Assembly (NCBI RefSeq): GCF_008974265.1
Contig: NZ_BKZW01000001.1
Coordinates: 2,914,001-2,978,000 of the forward strand
DNA length: 64,000 nucleotides
Origin: Dictyobacter vulcani
GTDB taxonomy: Bacteria > Chloroflexota > Ktedonobacteria > Ktedonobacterales > Ktedonobacteraceae
Direction: 5' to 3'
Position numbers and translations under genes: made by a program. Of this stretch, positions 8,802-32,784 are shown piece after piece (position 1 is the first letter of the stretch; each line of letters begins with the position of its first letter). The notes under the pieces were generated by a model. The model was not told where the DNA came from. It saw only the letters and a list, made by a program, of their open reading frames with translations, and ran no database searches.

Positions 8802-8875
8802 TGGCTGGGGTACAGGGATTCGAACCCCAATTGACTGATCCAGAATCAGCTGTCCTACCGTTGAACGATACCCCA
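8802..8875 (-). tRNA. tRNA-Gln (CUG anticodon)
   Basis: A cloverleaf is readable on the minus strand: acceptor TGGGGTA/TACCCCA, D-arm with TTCAACGGTAGG, anticodon stem CTGA/TCAG around loop TTCTGGA giving anticodon CTG, and a T-arm with GGTTCGAATCC. Discriminator G and CCA are encoded (8802-8805). The length is 74 nt. It has a strong promoter upstream and a perfect terminator downstream, so it is a single-gene unit. Confidence 0.95.
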
Positions 8876-8907: not shown

Positions 8908-8950
8908 ATAATACTCCATCCATTGATGGATGTCAAGAGCTTTTTAGCGA
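8908..8950 (-). promoter_or_regulatory. tRNA-Gln promoter with shared upstream element
   Basis: On the minus strand TTGACA (8936-8931), a 17-nt spacer and TATTAT (8913-8908). Immediately upstream is TCGCTAAAAAGC (8950-8939), the same 12-mer that precedes the -35 of the 16S rRNA promoter. Confidence 0.88.
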
Positions 8951-9113
8951 TTTATTAAAAATTGGAAAAATTCATCTAAATGATTGCCATTGAGGTCCAT
9001 TTAGGCATACAATAACGGTAGAATGCTGATAGATACAGCGTCCAAAGTATTTTTGAGCAATCGCTATTGATTGTAAATACACATAAAACGCGAATAGATG
9101 AAAGGATACGTCA

Positions 9114-27433: not shown

Positions 27434-27527
27434 TGGTTAAAAATCTGGTAGTGAGTTCAGTTGGATCGAGAAAAGAACGACCTCGGCTGAATGTAGAGGC
27501 GCAATAAATTTGGGAAACAAAAAAAAC

Positions 27528-27569
27528 TCGCTAAAAAGCCTTGACAAAGCTATTTTGAAATGTTATAGT
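27528..27569 (+). promoter_or_regulatory. rRNA promoter P1 with upstream element
   Basis: TTGACA (27541-27546), exactly 17 nt, TATAGT (27564-27569). TCGCTAAAAAGCC (27528-27540) directly abuts the -35 and is preceded by a run of As (27520-27526), like an UP element. The 12-mer TCGCTAAAAAGC is shared with the tRNA-Gln promoter. Confidence 0.9.
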
Positions 27570-28040
27570 AATTGAGCTGTCGCAAAACAACATCTTGTAG
27601 TTACGCCACGCTAAAGTGGCTTCCTCAGGGATTCAAAATTCCCCGTAGTGAGAATGTTCAATTTATAAAGTTTTTATGACTTTGTGGTTGAATGCTTGAA
27701 TCGTCTCTCATAAGAGAAAAAATGAGGCAAGAAAATCTCGTTGAGAAAGTACTTGACAAACAACTACAAGTATGCGATACTAACGAAGCTGAAGCGAGAT
27801 CCACAGTGAGATCGCAAAGTACCTTGACAACTGAAGAGTGGAAAGCAGAACAGCAACTGGAACAACATAAATCGTTTCTAGTTTCCTGTCAATTCGATCC
27901 TAATGTATGCAAGTATATTAGTGATCAACAATAATCTGCGAACAATTACAGCCAATGTTGTAAAACTTTGGCCATGGTCGCAACTTCACATGCAATTGAC
28001 ATACCTCCGCGTGAGTGTATGTTTGTATAAACGCAACAAT
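27570..28040 (+). other. rRNA operon leader
   Basis: A 470-nt transcribed leader before 16S. It holds a small hairpin GCCAC/GTGGC (27605-27620), the second promoter, and a repeated segment AAGTAC(C)TTGACAA (around 27748 and 27817). A reading frame at 27692-27934 has no ribosome site and is not considered a gene. Confidence 0.6.
27753..27781 (+). promoter_or_regulatory. rRNA promoter P2
   Basis: TTGACA (27753-27758), 17 nt, GATACT (27776-27781), inside the leader about 210 nt after P1. Confidence 0.65.

Positions 28041-32784
<4,744 letters not shown>

Follow-up and report, generated by a model that had tools for sequence, protein, structure and literature searches.

A 12-base word shared by two stable-RNA promoters of Dictyobacter vulcani very probably belongs to an ordinary UP element with two subsites

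Two stable-RNA promoters and the word they share

The window (the whole 64,000-nucleotide stretch of the Dictyobacter vulcani genome analyzed here) carries a tRNA-Gln(CUG) gene on its minus strand and an rRNA operon on its plus strand. Both are preceded by consensus promoters containing the 12-mer TCGCTAAAAAGC. The features of the two loci are the following, the UP subsites being predicted ones.

8802..8875, minus strand: tRNA-Gln(CUG) gene
8908..8913, minus strand: -10 box TATTAT of the tRNA-Gln promoter, with a 17-bp spacer (sequence and congener comparison)
8931..8936, minus strand: -35 box TTGACA of the tRNA-Gln promoter, kept in congeners
8941..8945, minus strand: putative proximal UP subsite of the tRNA-Gln promoter, A-tract AAAAA, core of the 12-mer at 8939-8950 (from the profile of 35 tRNA promoters)
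8951..8963, minus strand: putative distal UP subsite of the tRNA-Gln promoter, A/T block AATTTTTAATAAA, the block being kept in three congeners
27515..27526, plus strand: putative distal UP subsite of rRNA P1, an A-rich run
27533..27537, plus strand: putative proximal UP subsite of rRNA P1, A-tract, core of the 12-mer at 27528-27539
27541..27569, plus strand: rRNA P1 core promoter TTGACA-17-TATAGT, with orthologous promoters in three congeners
27728..27781, plus strand: rRNA P2, with UP-like A-tracts, TTGACA at 27753-27758, a 17-bp spacer and GATACT at 27776-27781
28041..29517, plus strand: 16S rRNA gene, P1 lying about 500 bp upstream

TCGCTAAAAAGC is found in two exact copies in the entire genome (7,415,204 bp, about 7.4 Mb), both at stable-RNA promoters: copy 1 at 8939-8950 (minus strand) in the tRNA-Gln(CUG) promoter, and copy 2 at 27528-27539 (plus strand) in P1 of one rRNA operon. 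Sequence matching in the window and the genome bears out the first-pass annotation in that both copies are real and each stands at a consensus TTGACA-17 stable-RNA promoter, continued by TATTAT for tRNA-Gln and by TATAGT for rRNA P1. The word had also been described as abutting the -35 box at the same position in both promoters; in fact it is separated from TTGACA by 2 nt (TC) at tRNA-Gln and by 1 nt (C) at rRNA P1, which gives offsets to the -35 box that differ by 1 nt. A recent duplication of a promoter segment was rejected since the likeness ends at the 12-mer and the gap to the -35 box differs. Within the window, the 12-mer allowing up to two mismatches is not enriched (9 found versus 5.7 expected).

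The genome contains nine 16S genes and 64 tRNA matches. The 12-mer is present at one of the nine rRNA operons, that of the window, and missing from the eight others; it is present at one of about 60 tRNAs and, among 35 distinct consensus tRNA promoters, at that of tRNA-Gln(CUG) only. With 2 of about 50 promoters carrying it, the word is not a site common to most members of a regulon. The annotation would have given up a regulator if the 12-mer had turned up at many positions unrelated to promoters; this did not occur, there being only the two copies genome-wide, and the regulator idea is weakened by the opposite observation, namely the absence of the 12-mer from the other stable-RNA promoters.

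Each of the nine rRNA operons has one or more TTGACA promoters with A-tracts, and eight have two in tandem; the P2 arrangement is found in eight of the nine operons, and also in congeners. The P1 of the window's operon is atypical, with TATAGT at about -500 versus CATAAT at about -590 in the other operons; in one operon the only promoter lies at -206. The 16S leader holds CCTTGACAACTGAAGAGTGGAAAG at 27822-27850, and a similar CCTTGACAACTAAATA lies upstream of 23S in other operons (reverse strand); this element looks like a conserved leader or spacer motif (boxA-like or processing) and not like a promoter. At the tRNA-Gln locus, the promoter spacer (8914-8930) contains a dyad, CATCCATTGATGGATG, which is disrupted in one congener; its half adjoining the -10 box, CAATGGATGGAG, is kept in all three close congeners and nearly so in a fourth.

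Positions of A-tracts upstream of the -35 box

Promoters were identified by consensus, and positions were counted relative to the -35 box. For comparison, we used a small set of 24 other consensus promoters from an 864-kb stretch (the window's rRNA P1 included) and 358 bare TTGACA sites without a -10 box. In the 35 distinct tRNA promoters, A reaches 71-77% at -20 to -17, the distal subsite, and 51-85% at -9 to -5, the proximal one, while between them (-14 to -10) bases are mixed and A accounts for only 14-34%. The pattern shared by most of the tRNA promoters and by promoters of all nine rRNA operons is AAAA at -20 to -17 together with AAAAA at -9 to -5, and an additional A-rich block is seen near -36 relative to the -35 box in the tRNA promoter profile. 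A proximal subsite was scored when at least four of its five positions were A, and a distal one when at least five of its six positions were A or T. Both subsites are present in 49% of the tRNA promoters versus 12% of the other consensus promoters (n=24) and 1% of the bare TTGACA sites (n=358), the difference between tRNA and other promoters giving p=0.0002 for each subsite. With leave-one-out scores, 79% of the tRNA promoters lie above the 95th percentile of bare TTGACA sites, and about one fifth have no clear UP profile. Across the nine rRNA operons, the profile was found in most P1 and all P2 promoters detected. Two near-identical non-tRNA promoters, C1:3290807 (L080) and C1:3359823 (L084), also have full UP elements, AAAATCTAAAAATTCGTTGAAAATCTAC followed by TTGACAACAGATGTTTTATATAAT.

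The two promoters sharing the 12-mer follow this pattern closely, with UP scores of 12.6 for tRNA-Gln and 13.0 for rRNA P1, each reached by 0.3% of bare TTGACA sites. A third, near copy of the word had been placed next to TTGACA at 10-25 and grouped with them. The letters described are present there; the kinship with this promoter class did not stand, and the resemblance appears coincidental. This TTGACA has no TAnnnT at 15-19 nt downstream, hence no -10 box, and the UP-profile score of the 25 bases upstream is one that 42% of bare TTGACA sites also reach. Its CGCTAA is not conserved in congeners, in which AACTTGACA and the inverted repeat following it are. On these three grounds we excluded 10-25 from this promoter class. 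The repeat itself, TTAAGGGCTTCCTATAAATGTAGGGAGCCCTTAA, is a near-perfect inverted repeat at 41-74, between the conserved AACTTGACA and a peptidyl-prolyl isomerase gene; it is kept in three congeners, once per genome there, and is possibly an operator or leader hairpin of that gene.

Conservation among relatives and chance level of the identity

The orthologous tRNA-Gln promoters of three congeners have CTCTCAAAAAAACCTC, CTCAATAAAAAGCGC and CTCTTACAAAACCC ahead of TTGACA, and their orthologous rRNA P1 promoters have GGGTGAAAACCC, GGGCAAAAAACC and TCCTGAAAAGGC. At both sets of orthologous promoters the 12-mer is not retained; the -35 box, the -10 box and the A-tracts are. A second genome of the genus displays the same A-tract profile, 78% of its 18 tRNA promoters scoring above the 95th percentile of bare sites. 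In another family of the same order, one genome (G027) has six recognisable consensus tRNA promoters, and none of the six has the UP profile, so our claim is limited to the genus and part of the family. Among 40 relatives, CGCTAAAAN followed by TTGACA after a gap of 0-4 occurs in just three other genomes, none of the same genus. A GTDB scan covering 84,980 species, in a collection that may omit the source genome and near relatives, returned 29 matches to TCGCTAAAAAGC-N(0-3)-TTGACA in unrelated phyla, when a rough calculation from about 257 Gb, both strands, four possible gaps and 18 fixed bases predicts about 30 by chance. The 12-mer was thus rejected as a lineage-wide motif.

The identity of 12 bases had been judged very unlikely by chance, which is correct for random DNA and much less so between two UP elements. 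Under a position-profile null, some promoter pair shares 12 bases at nearly equal offset in 2% of simulations, and when the real A-runs are kept and the flanks randomised, some pair shares 12 bases in 9%. The TCGCT and GC flanks of the A-tract are not conserved, and we take their identity at both promoters for a modest coincidence. GCTAAAA is found at 3-4 stable-RNA promoters versus about one expected (P about 0.02 for at least four) and at none of the 18 tRNA promoters of one congener, and TCGCTAAAAA is seen again in the rRNA P1 of one congener, where it occupies the distal position. We regard the GCTAAAA excess and the TCGCTAAAAA recurrence as weak, after-the-fact signals, with which a slight preference is conceivable.

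UP element and alternative readings

As in an UP element, the bases just before the -35 box (from about -60 to -38) are rich in A and T at both promoters. Taking -36 as the first position of the -35 box, the profile peaks at roughly -45 to -41 and -56 to -53, in agreement with the two subsites of an UP element, a proximal AAA near -43 to -41 and a distal AAA/W block near -57 to -51, spaced by about one helical turn. As also expected of UP elements, the pattern is enriched at strong stable-RNA promoters compared with other promoters. The only RpoA C-terminal domain (CTD) found in the genome aligns with 39% identity to the E. coli alpha CTD and has the motifs VR..NCLK and N.G.KSL.E intact; these presumably cover R265, N268, C269, N294, G296, K298, S299 and E302, so that an alpha CTD with the DNA-contact residues is available. 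The placement of the A-tracts, the excess of this profile at stable-RNA promoters, its persistence within the genus and these contact residues lead us to conclude, with high confidence, that at both stable-RNA promoters the 12-mer belongs to an ordinary UP element with two subsites. Judged from the sequence, the 12-mer itself would not be the functional unit, the shared feature being the two-part A-tract pattern, and the UP element is of an already known kind, no special new control site.

The published consensus of UP elements is AAAWWTWTTTTNNNAAA, its subsites having their centres around -42 and -52 (PMC2412878), either subsite can work alone (PMC4390567), and in the rrnB P1 structure R265 and N294 of the alpha CTD enter the minor groove (PMC7822876). 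Like the E. coli rrn P1 UP element, the one described here has a pair of A/T subsites immediately before the -35 box, the proximal A-tract near -42 and the distal one near -52 to -55, occurs at rRNA and tRNA promoters and is accompanied by an intact alpha CTD. The distal subsite differs, being mostly AAAAWW here versus a longer T-rich AWWTWTTTT in E. coli, as does the presence of UP-like A-tracts at both tandem promoters P1 and P2. By analogy with E. coli, the two A-tracts, which immediately precede consensus sigma70-type -35 boxes and are spaced by roughly one helical turn, would offer a narrow minor groove to the CTDs of both alpha subunits of RNA polymerase. These CTDs most likely bind the two A-tracts, and this binding would recruit the polymerase and raise transcription of tRNA and rRNA genes with no additional regulator involved.

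The first-pass annotation had proposed either an UP-element variant or the site of a growth-rate regulator. The former was right in kind, both subsites of an UP element being recognisable in the sequence; the latter finds no support, given the lack of the 12-mer at eight rRNA operons, at all other tRNA promoters and at the congener orthologues. More broadly, a dedicated stable-RNA regulator of this lineage could have TCGCTAAAAAGC or GCTAAAAA as its operator, which we consider highly improbable. Although both genomic 12-mers stand at stable-RNA promoters and GCTAAAA is mildly over-represented there, the 12-mer stands at one of nine rRNA operons and one of about 60 tRNAs, its two copies are shifted by 1 nt, it is missing from the orthologous promoters in three congeners and from 18 tRNA promoters of one congener, and the 29 database matches, in a collection that may omit near relatives, are scattered over unrelated phyla in about the number expected by chance. 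Fis sites, the growth-rate regulator sites of E. coli rrn, likewise lie upstream of rRNA promoters; they are 15-bp dyads of degenerate sequence, situated farther upstream than the UP element, whereas the 12-mer has no dyad and sits in the UP position. No dedicated regulator has to be invoked for the shared word.

At the other extreme, the A-rich words might be functionless and shared by pure chance, in keeping with the lack of conservation of the exact 12-mer between species; this too is very unlikely, given how far from random the A-tract positions are at stable-RNA promoters, with bare TTGACA sites as the reference, and given that a congener keeps them. A-tracts spaced by about 11 bp can bend DNA, and their spacing here, together with the extra A-rich block near -36 relative to the -35 box, would suit an action chiefly through intrinsic curvature or a nucleoid protein instead of the alpha CTD. 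However, the A-tracts lie at the positions of the alpha CTD subsites and the genome encodes an intact alpha CTD, and we give this reading hardly any weight. Scarcely probable as well is that GCT directly before the A-tract (GCTAAAAA) is favoured by a protein particular to the lineage or by an alpha CTD of altered specificity; if true, this preference would co-tune a subset of this species' stable-RNA promoters.

The UP element thus remains our preferred explanation, and it provides a clear two-subsite UP profile for the tRNA and rRNA promoters of a large-genome lineage. Apart from this lineage profile, the analogy with E. coli would confirm a textbook mechanism.
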